A DNA stretch of 64,000 nt, from assembly GCF_042453785.1 (NCBI RefSeq), contig NC_091670.1, positions 37,955,501 to 38,019,500 of the forward strand, written 5' to 3'. Below are positions 49,299 to 59,600 of this stretch, one piece after another. How positions within the stretch are numbered: the first letter of the stretch is position 1; each line of letters opens with the position of its first letter. Origin of the DNA: Malus domestica (lineage: Eukaryota > Streptophyta > Magnoliopsida > Rosales > Rosaceae). Both the position numbers and the translations under genes were made by a program. The notes below the pieces were generated by a model. The model had not been told where the DNA came from and did no database searches. It saw only the letters and a program-made list of their open reading frames with translations.

Positions 49299-52200
49299 AT
49301 GGGGATTCAAGGGCTACTGCCGCTACTTAAATCGATAATGGCGCCAATCCACATTAAGGACTTGGAGGGCACCTGCGTGGCGGTGGATACCTACTCTTGG
49401 CTTCACAAAGGCGCCTTGTCCTGCAGCAAAGACCTCTGCAAAGGCATACCCACCTCCAGGTTTCTCATTTTTTTCATCGCATTTGTCGGATTGGGATTTT
49501 GGGTTTTTGTTTGCTGGTCGTTCTGACATGAATTAGCTGCAAATTTCGATGCTTTTACGAAAATGTGATGATGGGTTCTTCTTGTTTTGACCATTTTGAT
49601 GCAAATTCGATGATGGGTCGTCTTGGTTCGAGCATTCCGATGTGTTTTTTCATGAATAATGATCGGTCTTTTGCGGAGCTGTTTCTGGTGTTCAGTAGAT
49701 GAAATTATTGTTATTTGTGTTTCACCAATTTTAAGAATTTGAGATAAAAGAACCAGAATTTGGCAGTGAGCTTATAGGAAAGGACAAAATGGGTTTTTAA
49801 AGTGATCCCTTTCCCTCTTTTGCTTTCAGATTACTTGCATTTGTTGGGTGCTTTTCACCATTACGGTATTATCTCACTTTTTCAGTCATTGTTCTCGCTT
49901 CTAAGTAAATTGACAAAAAAACACTAATTTTGGTAAATCAACTACTTATTGAACAGTATGTACACGAAGAATTGAAATCACTTCCGTCCTATGAAGTTCA
50001 CTGATAAGAAGCTACCTGCATTTTCTTTGTAGTCAGTGATTTTATGGATCCAAAAGTACTAATTTCAAAAAGTAGGATTCAAAGATGAAATAATTTATTA
50101 TCTCAAAGCTTCTTTGAAGTTTAGCGCGGTTGATTATATAAGTAGATTTTCTGTTATATATGATTCGTTTGCATTTCATTCCCATTTTAGGCACATTGAC
50201 TATTGTATGCATCGAGTAAACCTGCTGCGGCATTATGGTGTTAAACCCATTCTTGTATTTGATGGCGGACTTCTACCAATGAAGATTGAACAGGAGAACA
50301 AACGTGGAAGGTATGGTGGCATCTCTTTTATTCTAATTCAACTTGGTTGTAATCCATATTATATTTGCTCTTTGTTTTGGAGTAGGTTGCATAAATCCTT
50401 GATGACATTTAATTTTTCAATAGTGTCAGATATGTAACGAATTGACTAATTAATATTAGCTTAGGTTTGATCCACTATTTAGGATGTCTAAATCCTTGAT
50501 AAACTTTTGAATGCTTATGCTGATGGATGTTTGGACACCCTTAGAGATAAACTGAAACCATTAGTGCATAAGTTTGTGTTTGTAGCCAATGGATTATATG
50601 GGCAGATATATCCAACTCAACCTCTTAATATTTTTTCTTTCGCTTCCCTTGTATGGGGATTGGATTTCTCAACTCAAACCTTTCATTAAAAGACCACCCT
50701 GTCTATGTCATTTCTACTACATTTGGCAAGCTTCCGATCTTTAACGCATGATTGGTTTGTCTCTGCAACATGAGGCTGAGCTACTGATCCTTCTCTTCTA
50801 ACCTTATTAATTGATAGATCTAATACATAAGAGACTGGTGTTTGCCTCTTAAGGTTTATGTGTGGTTCATGGATAACTCAATTTAGGAACTGTTTTGTGT
50901 TCTCCTTACACAGGGCGAGAAAGGAAAATCTTGCACGTGCCATTGAGCATGAGTCCAACGGAAATTCTGCTGCTGCTTATGATTGCTACCAAAAAGCTGT
51001 TGACATTTCACCTTCAATTGCACGTGAGCTAATCCAGGTAAAAAAGTCGCTTTTGGGTTAAAGATCACTAGCTACTTAGAGTATCAGATCTTCGTAGGGA
51101 TTTATGTTTATCGTTAGCTCTACAGAATTTTATCTCCTCTCTTGTTGATACTGTTGCTCCTTGAAGGTGTTAAAGCAAGAGAATGTATGTTATGTGGTGG
51201 CTCCTTACGAGGCAGATGCTCAAATGACGTTCTTGGCTGTCAGCAAGCAGGTAGAAGCCGTAATCACCGAGGACTCAGATCTGATACCATTCGGATGCCC
51301 CAGGGTTAGCTATCTGTATAGCACAGACCACTTTTCTTTTCTTTACTATTAGAAATTTCTCTGTGTGATATGATAATTCTTTTTGTAATCCAGATTATCT
51401 TTAAAATGGATAAATTTGGGCAAGGAGTTGAGTTTCAGTATTCCATGCTACATCGGAACAAGGACTTGAGTTTTTCTGGATTCACAAAACAGATGCTTCT
51501 GGAGATGTGTATTCTGAGTGGTTGTGACTATTTACAGTCGTTGCCTGGAATGGGACTGAAAAGGGCACACGCCCTCATAAAAAAGTTCACAAGTTATGAT
51601 AAGGTGAAGTTTATTATTCATCCATTCTTTAAATTTCGGAAAACAGACCGGCATCATTTGAATAATTTTGTTTTAAAGTAACTGTAACTGATGACTGTCC
51701 GATTTCAGGTAATTAAGCACCTAAAGTACAGTACTGCTTCAGTTCCTCCCCTATATGAAGAATCATTCAAGAAGGCAATATTGACCTTCCAGCATCAACG
51801 GGTTTATGATCCCGTTTCTCAAGATATTGTATACTTGTCTGAAATGTCTGATCATGTTGTGGATGATTTTGACTTCTTAGGACCATATCCTTTATACTAT
51901 TCATCTCAGTCAACCATCTTATTACTTTCTTTTATTGTTTCATTACTTCCATCTATTCTTTTCAATGCATAAGATTACGCCTTAACCTGAAATACATCGA
52001 TATCACAGCATATAGCTAAAGGTATAGCAGAAGGTGATATTGATCCATTTACTAAAATGCCATTCCAGGTATCCTCTGTGCGATTTCCATAAGGTTTTTT
52101 TTTTTTCCGATTGATTTTCTTCAATTGTCTGTGTGTTAGTTTAGTCGTAATGAGACTAAAGTAGGTTTTCTTCTTTTCTCTTTGCGGGATCAGGAAATGA

Positions 52201-54059
52201 ACGTTAGTGCCGACAGAACTTACCAACCTAAAAATGTCAATCTTGGAAGGATAAATAAAAGGCTGGATTTGCCTGTGCAGAATAACCTCCTGACTAAATA
52301 TTTTTGTATCCTTTGAATCCCTTTTTTCTTAAGCTTGATTAGATTATCTAGGTTTTAATTCAGTATATTGTGCTAAAGAATCAGTATAAAAATAATGTTC
52401 ACAGTATTGCATTTTTGTAGCTTATATTGTGCTTGGGCTCAAGTTCTGCAGTTTTTCTTTGACAACTAAAGGCTTTGCCTCTCTTGAAGCAAAGAGAAAA
52501 TTCACGGCTCCACGGAACTCACCTGATTCTCCAAGTCCGGTTGATGACTCTTCTCTCAGTCCCAATGAAATTGCCTCTGCGGATGATGTTTCGTATAAAA
52601 CAAACTGCTCAGAGTCATCCCTTGTTAACTCTGACAACATGGGAAATGAACCTCCCAGTGATTCAGTGAGTTTCATAAATGGGTGTGATATGATAATTGT
52701 TATTCGAAGATCACTTATTAATCAACTGTCGTTACTCCTTATAAATTATCTTGTCTTTTCTAGGATCACTTATTAATCAACTGTCGTTACACTTCATAAT
52801 TTATCTGTCTTTTCTAGGTAGAAGATGAATTCGACACTGATGTCCCTGATTCAATAGAATCTCAAAATCATGGTAAGGATATAGTTTCCCCCTTGATAAC
52901 TTCATGGATCCATTTTTAGTTTTCTGGTTACTAGTAGTTACAACTCACTTGAATTTGTGTTCCTGACATTGAAAGACATGGTGCGCGTGAGACGAAGTCC
53001 AGAAAATACATTGTTGCAATTGCCCAGACATTCTATCCATAAGCCTTGTGTAACGCTGCATAGGGAGCGTGAATGTAAGAATGCCCCAGACACAGTTGAG
53101 GGTGGTAAGACAAGAACGGAGCACAGAAAGGTCATTGTTAGGAGTTCTTATTTCAAGGATAAGTCAATCAGTGAACACAATCAGGAAAAGCGATTGCTGA
53201 AGGATGATCTTGCTATTGATATGCACAAGGATGCAGTTCCTGAGAGTACTCATTTTGAGAACAGCTATTTTAATGGAAAAGTCGCTAAAAGGAGAACCTC
53301 CCCACATGACAATGTTCAAGTGGTAGGTGTTTTTCTCTCCTCTGATTTTATGCTTAGAATGTTTTTGTTTATGATTATTTTTCTTATAAAAACACTATTG
53401 TTTAACTGCTTCAGGAGAATGTGAAACCCAAACCACTGTGTATCAGTGCGTCCCTTCCTGATGATGGTAAGTGTTAGTCGAAACTCAAAAAAATAGTTGA
53501 GCACCCTAATTTCGAAATCAAGTTATTCGATATGCTTTTTATTAACTGTTCAAGATAAGCTTCTCTTGTTCACTTACAGATCCATGCTAATGCCAAGCTT
53601 ATTAATATTATAACGTATTGAATCTTTCATCAGAGCAAATATTTTGTTTTGTTTCTTCAATGTAGGTCCCTGTGCATCTAGCCTGAACAAGGCAGTTACA
53701 GACACAAATGAAGAAGGAAAATTCGCATCCAATATTTCCCATTTAGGCCGTTATTCAGATATAGCAGAGAAATCAGTGGAAAATTTTGTATCAGTAATAT
53801 CATCATTTAGATTTTCCTCGTCTGGTTCTCGTGCAAGTGGTCTTCGTGCTCCTTTGAAAGATGTCCAAAACACCAGTACCAATAGGTAATCCCTGTTGTG
53901 TATGGACGATCCAATCTTAATGTTCATTGCGCTAAAATGAATGACTTGATCTTTGTTTATTGCAGACCAACTGTTGTTGACTTCAGCAAATTTGAATATA
54001 TACCAAGTATTCAGAAAACTTCCGCAGCATCACGCAAACGCTGTTTTAGACCTGTTTAA
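49299..54059 (+). CDS. EXO1: Exonuclease 1 (FEN1/XPG family), 14 exons
   Basis: 5'-3' exonuclease and flap endonuclease for mismatch repair and resection of double-strand breaks in the nucleus. Exons: 49299-49459, 50191-50310, 50914-51037, 51167-51304, 51394-51603, 51709-51884, 51996-52068, 52194-52305, 52472-52665, 52818-52872, 52976-53322, 53415-53466, 53666-53885 and 53966-54059. They total 2076 nt (691 residues). XPG-N domain: MGIQGLLPLLKS, AVDTYSWLHKGA (metal Asp), PILVFDGGLLPMK. XPG-I: APYEADAQMTFL and ITEDSDLIPFG. Further acidic residue in SGCDYLQSLPGMG, leading to the helix-hairpin-helix. The C-terminal half is low in conservation apart from LGPSISQHIAKG and FASLEAKRKFTAPR, and ends ASRKRCFRPV. 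All family metal-binding acids seem present. Introns 6 and 8 match U12-type consensus. Confidence 0.94.
51885..51995 (+). other. U12-type AT-AC intron (EXO1 intron 6)
   Basis: Starts ATATCCTTT, the exact minor-spliceosome 5' site. It has CGCCTTAAC (consensus TTCCTTAAC) at 51978-51986 with the branch A 10 nt before the end, and ends AC. Splicing here gives LGP-SISQHIAKG, which fits the EXO1 family sequence. No GT-AG alternative I tried keeps this frame. Length 111 bp. Confidence 0.85.
52306..52471 (+). other. U12-type GT-AG intron (EXO1 intron 8)
   Basis: Starts GTATCCTTTG, matching the U12 5' consensus, and has TTCTTTGAC at 52455-52463 as branch site, its A 9 nt before the AG end. Splicing gives NNLLTKYF-CFASLEAKRKF. 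Length 166 bp. It lies one exon after the AT-AC intron. Confidence 0.75.
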
Positions 54060-55659: not shown

Positions 55660-56651
55660 TGTCAAGAATTCTGGAATATAATTGACAAAAAGGGAATACG
55701 ATACAATACAAGAGTATGTGTTTGGGCCCAAAATAGCAGTTTGGGCCGAGGGAGGAATCACTCTCGGCCCGGGAAGCCGTACGGCGAAAGGGTCATGGAG
55801 CGTTCAGCTCATGGGCTTCCAAGCCTAGGTCGGTTAAATCAGAATGCAAGTCGAGTCCTAATACAATAGGGACTCTCGACGAGATCAGTAAAACTAGAAA
55901 GCGAATCCGGCTCAGTTAAGGACTAGATTCGTAGTCCTAGCAGAGATAGGACTGATCGAGGTAATGTTAATCCGGAGAAGGAAACCTAGTTCGAATAGAT
56001 TGGAATTCGGGCTCGGTGTTCTGCTACTATAAATACAACACATTCACACAAATCAGGGGCTGCAAATCAATACAAAATTGCCCTGCGCAAACTCTCACAA
56101 CTTGTGATTTTTCTTTTTCCTTTTTCGCTGACACATCTTCCGTTGGCATCAACAGCACTGTGGAAGCAACCGGTGATATCTTAAGTCGGCATAGATAGCT
56201 CTGTCACCATAGAGTCAGTCGGTCTCGCAGTATCTTCCGTTGGCATCAACAGCACTGCGGCGAGAACGATTGATTACCTATCCAAGTCTCGGTCGAGAAG
56301 GGTTTCTAAATCCTTATTGGTCGAGGTCATCTCATCAGCCTTCTCGGCGAAGTGAGGTGTTACAGTTATTACGTTCGGCACATTGAAAGCCGAATTTGAT
56401 ATTGAACTTCGTAAGAATAGTAACCTTGTCTTCAGGTTCGAGAGCCCAAGAGGCCGAGACGTGTTCCTTTCTCGGCCGCAATCGCAAGACGCAGAAGTCA
56501 GTAGGGCGACCCAACGCAACATCAACAAATTTACTCCTCGGCCGAGCTCGGCCGACGAGTTGGCACGCCCCGCATTCACCGAAGGACGTAGTTAGCTCAT
56601 TAATTACTCGACCTGCGCGCCACGTAGGCTTTGTAGTTTCTAGGGTCAACA
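55660..56651 (+). repeat. 5' LTR of the gypsy element
   Basis: Begins TGTCAAGAATTC and ends GGTCAACA just before the primer-site-like tract. A TATA motif (CTATAAATACAACAC) lies at about 56027. Inside, ATCTTCCGTTGGCATCAACAGCACTG occurs twice (near 56135 and 56232) in shortened form ATCTTCCGTTGGCATCAACA. The right boundary is inferred, as the second LTR is not in the window. Confidence 0.65.
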
Positions 56652-59600
56652 TTTTGGCACGCCCGGTGGGACCCAGTGCTAAACTACGAAGTTCATGCCA
56701 ATTGAAACACGATCGATAAAAAAGAAAACCACTATGGGAAAGTCGACAGCCGATTTGCCGAATCAAAGCACGGGACAAAGTGTGCCACAGGCGCAGAATC
56801 CCCTTAGCGCCGTGACACCTGAGTCCACGAGTGCGACCCGCCGAGAGAGAGAAGTTAATCTCGGCAGTCAACTCCGCGGTCCAGAAATCCCTAACAGGAA
56901 CACCTGCATTCTCACTGAAGGGATAGTAGAAGAGTGTGACGAGGATGGTGGTGAAGGATCTGACCCACCGACAAGGTCGTTTCTTCGAAAGCGACTGGAC
57001 GAGCAGTCTCGGTCAGTCGAGCAAACGTTTAGTCGAGGCATTGACAAGCTGTATGACGCGATACTCAGTTCCAATGATCGACAAACCAGGCTGCTCGAAA
57101 TGCTGGTTAGTCAAGTTGGTGGCAGCAGGCCTTTCGATCTTCGCCAACATTGTTTACCAGGAAACAACCCGGTACCGATTGTACCGGCCGAGCCTATTCC
57201 TGCCCCGCTCAAACCAATTAACTTGGAGAAAGGGGGAGGGTCGAATAGTAGGTCAGACGGGACCGACCAGAGGGTCGAAGCAACACCTGTTGATATGACC
57301 GAAGTTCAGCGGATGATCGACTCGGCCATGAAAAAAGGGCCGAAGTTCCCCAAGTTTATTCATCCGTACCCGGCTTACGTGGAAACGTTTGGATACCCGA
57401 AGGGTTTCAACATCCCAGATTTTAGTCTTTTTGCCGGTGAATCGTCTCTGTCTTCGTTGGAGCACGTGGCTCGTTTCACCGCGCAGTGCGGAGATGTTAA
57501 TAGTGATTTCCACAAGTTACGGCTGTTCAATTTTTCATTGACCGGCTCAGCATTTGCCTGGTACATCAATCTCCCGCCTAATTCCATCCAAAACTGGGAG
57601 GAGTTGGTCGAGAAGTTCCACGAGCAGTTTTATCGACCGGGGATAGAGATGTCAGTCTCTTCATTAGCACGGATGGCTCAAGCATCTGATGAGTCACCAA
57701 TGGATTATCTTACCAGGTTCAAATCGGCTAGGAATTGGTGCCGAGTGCCTTTACCCGAAGTCGAATTTGTCAGGCTTGCTTTGAACGGCCTTGACGTCGA
57801 ATACAAAAAGAAATTCTTGGGGGCAAATTTCCGGGATATGTACGAATTAGCCCAACATGTCGAGCAGTATGATTATTTGCTCCGCGAGGAAAAGACTTCG
57901 AAGACTCCAACTCGGGGAACGATTTACAAGAACCCTACTGTCAATTATGCATCAACCGAGGATGAGTGCGTTAGTGTGGATGCGGCTGAGATAGTGGTAG
58001 ATAAGCCATATGTTTGCAAGGCATTGACTCAGGTTGATTCTAGAGAAGCCAAAAGTCGCTCGGCCACTGAAGGAACATCGAAACCATCAAAGGTTTATAC
58101 TTTTGATATTACCAAGGCCGACGCAATTTTTGACCAACTGTTATCAGCAAGAATCATTAAGCTTCGGCCTGGTCATAACATTCCTAAGGCCGAAGAGCTT
58201 AAAGGAAAGGTGTATTGCAAATACCACAATTCGAGCAAACACACGACAAACAATTGCGTCGTATTTCGCGATAATGTCCAAAGCTGGATTGATAATGGCA
58301 AACTGAAGTTTCCCGAGAAGAGGATGAGTGTTGATACTGATCCGTTCCCCACGGCAACAGTAAATATGGTCGACGCGTACCTACCCAAGGACAAAGGGAA
58401 AGGCAAGGCTGAAGTGGTTGAGACACAACACCCGCGGAATCAGAATGTTCGGCCACGGTTCATGGCCGATTTTCGTTGAAACAAACCACATACGGCTTTA
58501 ACGGGGCCCGCCATTGTCAAACCTATGATGGATTATAGCACCAATGAAGATAGTGGGACGGCGGTTTTGTGCAGGAAATGTAAAGCGAAGGTCGACAGTG
58601 AACCAGAGGAGAAGCCTTCTTCGCAACCCGTGGCCGTAACTCGGCAAAAGATAGCCGATGAAGGCCAACATCATGGGGTTTTTGGGAGGCTCGGTCCTAA
58701 AGTATGGATGGAAGAGACACCCCCGGTCAGGCGGTGCCTCGATTTTGATGCTTCATTCTATGACGATGATTACTATAAGCCTAATTCTAGCAGTTCAGGA
58801 TCATCGCGGAGTCAAAAGACCTTCAAGCCTCCCGAGCCTAGAGATCAACGTTGGTATACATACCATTCTTCGAAGGGTGTCTACACCGCGTTGTCCAAAT
58901 CTCAGAAACGCCGGCATCAACGGATAGATTGCATAGCTCGCCGACGAGCAGCCCAAGAAACTTCGGCCCCTAAGTGGCGGCCGAAGGATACAGTTGCCAC
59001 TAACGAGGAGCGACCACCTCCAGCAATTATGACAGAGTTGGCTCAGGGGAAACGGCTGGTCGATCAAGATGTCGAGACCATGTTTGAAGAAGCTGATAAA
59101 CGGATCAAACTTCTCATTCGACCAGGGGAAATGAAGGCACGTCTTGAACATTTCAGGCAAGAGGCCGAAAGCAAATTATCCCCGCCAGTTATACAAGAGC
59201 CTTTGGTCAAAATTCGACGGAATTTGCATCCCCCGTTCTTTGGGAAGTCTTTGGAGTATATGCGAGAATTTCATAAGAATCATTCGGCCAACGATCTGTA
59301 TGGTTTGCCGAAGGCATGCCAGGACACCATCGATCTGATCCTGACTTGTCCGGATGCCGAGCGGATCATCCAGAAGACCTCAGATCCAGGATTGAAAGCA
59401 AGGTTCCAGCACATACGAGAAGCTCGTGTCTTTGGATTTGAAGTCGACCCGTACACCGATATCAATACAGCCGACCTTCCTTTCTTGCTGGAGGACCTTC
59501 AGTATTTACGATATCACTTTGAAGTATTTTTTGCGGTTTCTCTCTTCGGCCTTACGACCGATGAAATCGCACGTATTGCCCGTCTGGATGCTTATCTCGA

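Follow-up and report, generated by a model that had tools for sequence, protein, structure and literature searches.

Two candidate U12-type introns, one AT-AC and one GT-AG, in an EXO1 gene of Malus domestica

The EXO1 locus

We analyzed a window of 64,000 nucleotides of the Malus domestica genome (C10:37955501-38019500) that carries a gene for the repair nuclease EXO1, in which intron 6, with AT-AC ends, and intron 8, with GT-AG ends, are candidates for removal by the minor, U12-type spliceosome. Genome-wide searches covered 651 Mb in 19 contigs. The gene product contains the Pfam domains XPG_N and XPG_I, and its closest relative of solved structure is human Exonuclease 1 (E = 3.3e-77), which is far ahead of the best flap endonuclease 1 (4.8e-24). 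On the strength of these domains and this match, the gene is, judged by its sequence, a plant EXO1, nearer to EXO1 than to FEN1, XPG or GEN1, as the original prediction for this DNA had named it. Residues 1-330 are the part that aligns to the human EXO1 structures. The gene model, the intron boundaries, the motif scores, the complementarity to small nuclear RNAs (snRNAs) and the position of the paralogous intron described below were computed directly. The features are as follows.

EXO1 gene, 49299-54059, plus strand: start to stop codon, 14 exons, 692 amino acids, a single open frame
Intron 6, 51885-51995, plus strand: 111 nt, AT-AC, putative U12-type, phase 2, splits codon 310
Intron 6 donor ATATCCTTT, 51885-51893, plus strand: 9/9 against RTATCCTTT
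Intron 6 branch motif CCTTAAC, 51980-51986, plus strand: last A 10 nt before the intron end
Exon 7, 51996-52068, plus strand: 73 nt, between putative U12-type intron 6 and intron 7
Intron 7, 52069-52193, plus strand: phase 0, GT-AG, G at -1, donor start GTATCCTCTG
Exon 8, 52194-52305, plus strand: 112 nt, between intron 7 and putative U12-type intron 8
Intron 8, 52306-52471, plus strand: 166 nt, GT-AG, putative U12-type, phase 1
Intron 8 donor GTATCCTTT, 52306-52314, plus strand: 9/9 against RTATCCTTT
Intron 8 branch motif TTCTTTGAC, 52455-52463, plus strand: 8/9 against TTCCTTRAC, A 9 nt before the intron end

Protein searches of the genome recovered further EXO1 matches on contigs C5, C14 and C15. 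These are, respectively, a decayed copy, a diverged EXO1-like gene (hereafter the C14 paralog) and a set of fragments.

Boundaries and splicing signals of introns 6 and 8

Re-reading the sequence returned the coordinates and motifs that had been proposed for both introns. Intron 6 starts with ATATCCTTTA, carries CCTTAAC near its 3' end and terminates in AAATAC, and intron 8 starts with GTATCCTTTG, carries TTCTTTGAC near its 3' end and terminates in AAAG. For intron 6, we compared these boundaries with alternative donors at 51791-51960 and acceptors up to 52050, at a minimum length of 60 nt, scoring each resulting protein against the C14 paralog and human EXO1. We tried 67 GT-AG, 107 AT-AC and 8 GC-AG pairs, among which 6, 12 and 0, respectively, were in frame and open. 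The pair 51885-51995 topped all 18 of these, with a score of 65 against the paralog and 31 against human EXO1, and the human EXO1 alignment runs ungapped across its junction. The claim that AT-AC splicing fits the family and GT-AG splicing does not was upheld, as all six open GT-AG pairs scored lower. An alternative explanation is that the major spliceosome removes intron 6 at other, GT-AG boundaries and that the AT-AC reading is accidental. The frame does stay open in 6 of the 67 GT-AG pairs, but the best of them reached only 36 (paralog) and 15 (human EXO1), with foreign residues inserted, and a GT-AG reading leaves unexplained the U12-like intron that the C14 paralog has at the same codon. 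We therefore consider this alternative extremely improbable.

A scan of both introns for U12 signals had been suggested in the original prediction, and we carried it out by consensus scoring of all 13 EXO1 introns. Donors were compared with RTATCCTTT, the U12 donor consensus also used in the original prediction, and branch motifs were compared with TTCCTTRAC in the range 8-21 nt before the intron end. Only the donors of introns 6 and 8 matched at all nine positions, followed by intron 7 at 8/9 and the other ten introns at no more than 5/9. The branch score was highest in intron 8 (8/9), followed by introns 6 and 11 (7/9 each), with the remaining ten introns at 4-6; the intron 6 motif, CGCCTTAAC, contains a perfect CCTTAAC core. 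Its last A lies 10 nt, and the preceding A 11 nt, from the intron end; a passage of PMC3584512 gives an optimum of 11-13 nt, by a counting convention that may differ.

To put these scores in context, the window contains 18761 AT or GT sites on both strands, and the only two perfect donor 9-mers among them are those of introns 6 and 8. Both fall exactly at exon ends that are fixed by the protein, so the donor evidence rests on position and not on count. Branch motifs of at least 7/9 at 8-21 nt are found at 3.5% of the 6969 AG sites and 4.1% of the 6625 AC sites in the window, and motifs of 8/9 at 0.2% of either; thus, each branch motif alone is moderate evidence.

The genome encodes candidate minor-spliceosome snRNAs. 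Matches over the Rfam cut-off were obtained for U12 (2 of 3), U11 (2 of 2) and U6atac (9 of 9), the last comprising two strong matches (98-99 bits) and seven weaker ones (36-65 bits) that may be pseudogenes. U4atac gave no match in the genome, but none of 14 control genomes gave one either, so this search shows nothing. These snRNA sequences of the genome are complementary to the donor and the branch motif. We computed donor pairing with the 5' end of the genome's own U11 and with a standard U1 5' end. U11 was favored over U1 in only two of the 13 introns, namely intron 6 (-6.5 versus -2.1 kcal/mol) and intron 8 (-7.8 versus -1.3 kcal/mol).

The pairing also bears on the possibility that intron 8 belongs to the U2 type and that its donor resembles the U12 consensus by chance. 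In favor of this are its GT-AG ends and the T-rich stretch before its 3' end; moreover, the C5 copy has a weaker branch motif in this intron (7/9), and no intron was found at the equivalent place in the poorly aligned tail of the C14 paralog. Nevertheless, among the 13 introns, intron 8 has both the weakest U1 and the strongest U11 pairing, and its donor matches at 9/9 and its branch motif, 9 nt before the intron end, at 8/9. A U2-type intron 8 is consequently very unlikely.

Several observations weigh against the assignment of introns 6 and 8 to the minor class. RTATCCTTT occurs twice in the window, against 2.00 occurrences expected from shuffles, and the shorter RTATCCTT occurs 7 times against 6.05, so there is no excess of the donor. 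Across the genome, the combined pattern ATATCCTTT-N60..90-CCTTAAC had 14 matches on both strands, fewer than the 185 of a reversed control pattern, and motif counting was rejected as proof. Intron 11 reaches 7/9 for its branch motif despite a plain U2 donor. Pairing of the branch with U12 snRNA was likewise rejected as a discriminator, with introns 6 and 8 (-5.1 and -5.6) lying inside the range of the 13 introns (-1.8 to -7.8). The preference for U11 over U1 has false positives, because in the C14 paralog it is seen in 3 of 10 introns, two of which have no U12 consensus donor and the third of which is the U12-like one. In that U12-like intron, the branch A and the 3' end are 20 nt apart, which exceeds the optimum in the passage of PMC3584512. 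Finally, introns 6 and 8 of the C5 copy still have 9/9 donors and 7/9 branch motifs each, but at 88-95% identity to the window (88% in intron 6, 88% in intron 7 and 95% in intron 8) these may be leftovers in a decayed copy. Weighing these points against the perfect donors, the branch motifs and the preference for U11, we infer with high confidence that introns 6 and 8 are genuine members of the U12 class and are excised by the minor spliceosome, as originally predicted.

Known U12 introns in EXO1 and the age of intron 6

U12 introns in EXO1 are already known from mammals, as the gene is named among U12-intron genes in passages on human (PMC7612377) and mouse (PMC7312986). The gene family and the intron class are therefore shared with the case described here; those passages state neither where the U12 introns lie nor how many there are. 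The structure-match alignment alone would place the human counterpart of intron 6 at codon 315, phase 2, and a literature search for human variants at c.944/945 gave no papers. PMC7042379 includes Arabidopsis EXO1 in its tabulation of the plant DNA damage response and makes no mention of U12, and PMC12475092, in which loss of ZRSR2 is lethal jointly with loss of EXO1, is silent on the introns of EXO1 itself. Our literature searches covered open-licence full text, with supplementary intron tables outside this scope, and turned up no report of a U12 intron in the EXO1 gene of a plant, although genome-wide inventories of introns are very likely to contain it.

The rarity of the arrangement had been put somewhat too strongly. 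According to a passage of PMC7367187, the AT-AC share of U12-type introns is 26% in Arabidopsis, 23% in soybean, 22% in rice and 13% in maize, so such introns are less rare within the class than claimed. Two U12 introns in one gene are indeed uncommon, but about 50 human genes have two according to a passage of PMC3584512, which also describes an enrichment of U12 introns in genes for information processing, among them those for DNA repair. The EXO1 gene here resembles those human genes in having two such introns and differs from them in being a plant repair nuclease with one intron of each subtype.

The related copies provide information on the age of these introns. The C5 copy (C5:41306500-41312500) has stop codons, including one in exon 1, and, through an internal deletion that begins in exon 1 and ends in exon 3, lacks the stretch matching window positions 49413-50997; nothing was found beyond exon 9, its 3' part being lost. 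Because this copy is decayed, no EXO1 of the closest type other than the window gene appears intact in the genome. The C14 paralog shares introns 2, 3, 4, 5 and 6 with EXO1 in both codon and phase. The rest of EXO1 introns 1-8 (introns 1, 7 and 8) were not matched in codon and phase in this paralog, with introns 7 and 8 falling in a poorly aligned region. At the codon and phase of intron 6, the C14 paralog has an intron with donor GTATCCTTG (8/9), branch motif TTCCTTGAC (9/9) and an AG end. Since a U12-like intron occupies the same codon and phase in both genes, the sequence comparison places the origin of the intron 6 position before the split between EXO1 and the C14 paralog, and one of the two copies would since have switched between AT-AC and GT-AG, in either direction. 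Subtype switches of this kind at one position are described in a passage of PMC2831892. The present pair is similar in that an intron shared in codon and phase has AT-AC ends in EXO1 and GT-AG ends in the paralog, and differs in that it consists of paralogs of one plant genome, with either direction of change possible. On C15, EXO1-type fragments with stop codons lie on the minus strand at about 5300-4780 of the extracted stretch; they carry ATATCCTTT at the intron 6 position, and no CCTTAAC, CTTAAC or CCTTGAC follows it within the stretch examined.

Additional features were noted in these genes and in the window. In the C14 paralog, intron 3 (1891-2002 of the extracted C14 stretch) appears to be GC-AG (GCATGT...TTCAG). 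In intron 9 of the window gene, about 55 bp are duplicated in tandem at 52709-52817, which doubles the 3' splice site of this intron, and use of the upstream site (ending at 52763) would, by eye, soon give a stop codon. The translated EXO1 tail contains RSSYF, a candidate that resembles the C-terminal MLH1-binding motif. Outside the gene, window positions of about 55700-57000 resemble, on inspection by eye, the 5' portion of a long terminal repeat retroelement, with a long terminal stretch followed by TGGCACGCCCGGTGGGACC.

Intron 7 and possible consequences for EXO1 expression

Intron 7 has a donor, GTATCCTCT, that matches the U12 consensus at 8/9 positions and was missed in the original prediction; the C5 copy has GTATCGCCTG at this place. 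Its 3' end is pyrimidine-rich, no U12 branch motif was found in the scored range of 8-21 nt (best 5/9; the best anywhere in the intron, 7/9, lies 101 nt from the end), and its donor pairs better with U1 (-8.5 kcal/mol) than with U11 (-4.4 kcal/mol). For these reasons, intron 7 is probably U2-type. A passage of PMC7367187 proposes that conversion from U12 to U2 favors phase 0 introns with G at -1. Intron 7 resembles this class in its phase, its G at -1 and its U12-like donor, and was possibly converted from a U12 intron; conversion at this site is a guess, and no U12-type ortholog of intron 7 was encountered, the comparison covering the copies in this genome. The donor was singled out after the fact, and its origin by chance is possible, because 6 of the 1510 GTA sites in the window continue with TCCT, introns 7 and 8 among them. 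As a tentative and rather unlikely scenario, introns 6-8 would descend from three consecutive U12 introns, of which the middle one, in phase 0 and with G at -1, is passing to the major spliceosome and its neighbors, in phases 2 and 1, stay U12-type, and EXO1 would also be among the repair genes controlled by the AT-AC-specific factors DROL1 and CENATAC.

The order in which U11, U12 and U6atac act is an established mechanism. In EXO1, U11 would read the donors of introns 6 and 8, U12 snRNA would read their branch motifs, and U6atac would then displace U11 at the donor. As two apparent minor-class introns flank intron 7, full-length EXO1 mRNA would therefore need two minor-class splicing events. 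Retention of intron 6 is predicted to yield a product of 338 amino acids (310 native and 28 foreign), retention of intron 7 one of 341 and retention of intron 8 one of 374. Each of these would be without the C-terminal tail, and only the products with intron 7 or 8 retained would keep all of the structure-aligned part, because this part spans residues 1-330.

It is plausible that splicing may limit EXO1 expression, as the original prediction suggested, and rate limitation by the minor spliceosome is put forward as a suggestion in a passage of PMC3584512. In this view, introns 6 and 8 would be slow, rate-limiting steps through which the activity of the minor spliceosome determines EXO1 dosage and, with it, mismatch repair and end resection. 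Any such dosage effect would agree with the truncation of both predicted retained forms (338 and 374 amino acids) and with the decay of the C5 copy, which leaves the window gene without an apparently intact counterpart of its type. It would also agree with a passage of PMC8280824, in which AT-AN introns are spliced less well, with higher basal retention, and need CENATAC in human cells, and with one of PMC11039992, in which AT-AC introns are reported as targets of DROL1 in Arabidopsis. Genes of the CCDC84/CENATAC family are present in this genome on C14 and C6; a search for the DIM1 family gave nine matches, among which DROL1 was not separable from its DIM1 relatives. However, a passage of PMC7367187 cites evidence that both types of splicing are fast enough for co-transcriptional removal, conservation of an intron class requires no regulatory role, and neutral processes may account for much of minor intron evolution, as the title of PMC10639083 indicates. 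We therefore regard control of EXO1 dose by these introns as doubtful.

The findings nonetheless bear on how this gene is modeled and on how its introns evolve. Gene prediction restricted to GT-AG introns would mis-model EXO1 in this genome, because the conserved protein results only when intron 6 is read with AT-AC ends. EXO1 and its C14 paralog would offer a clean example of subtype switching at one ancient position, and, if the three-intron scenario is true, introns 6-8 would be a within-gene instance of the proposed phase-dependent conversion. Were introns 6 and 8 indeed limiting, plant mismatch repair and resection would respond to minor-spliceosome activity.

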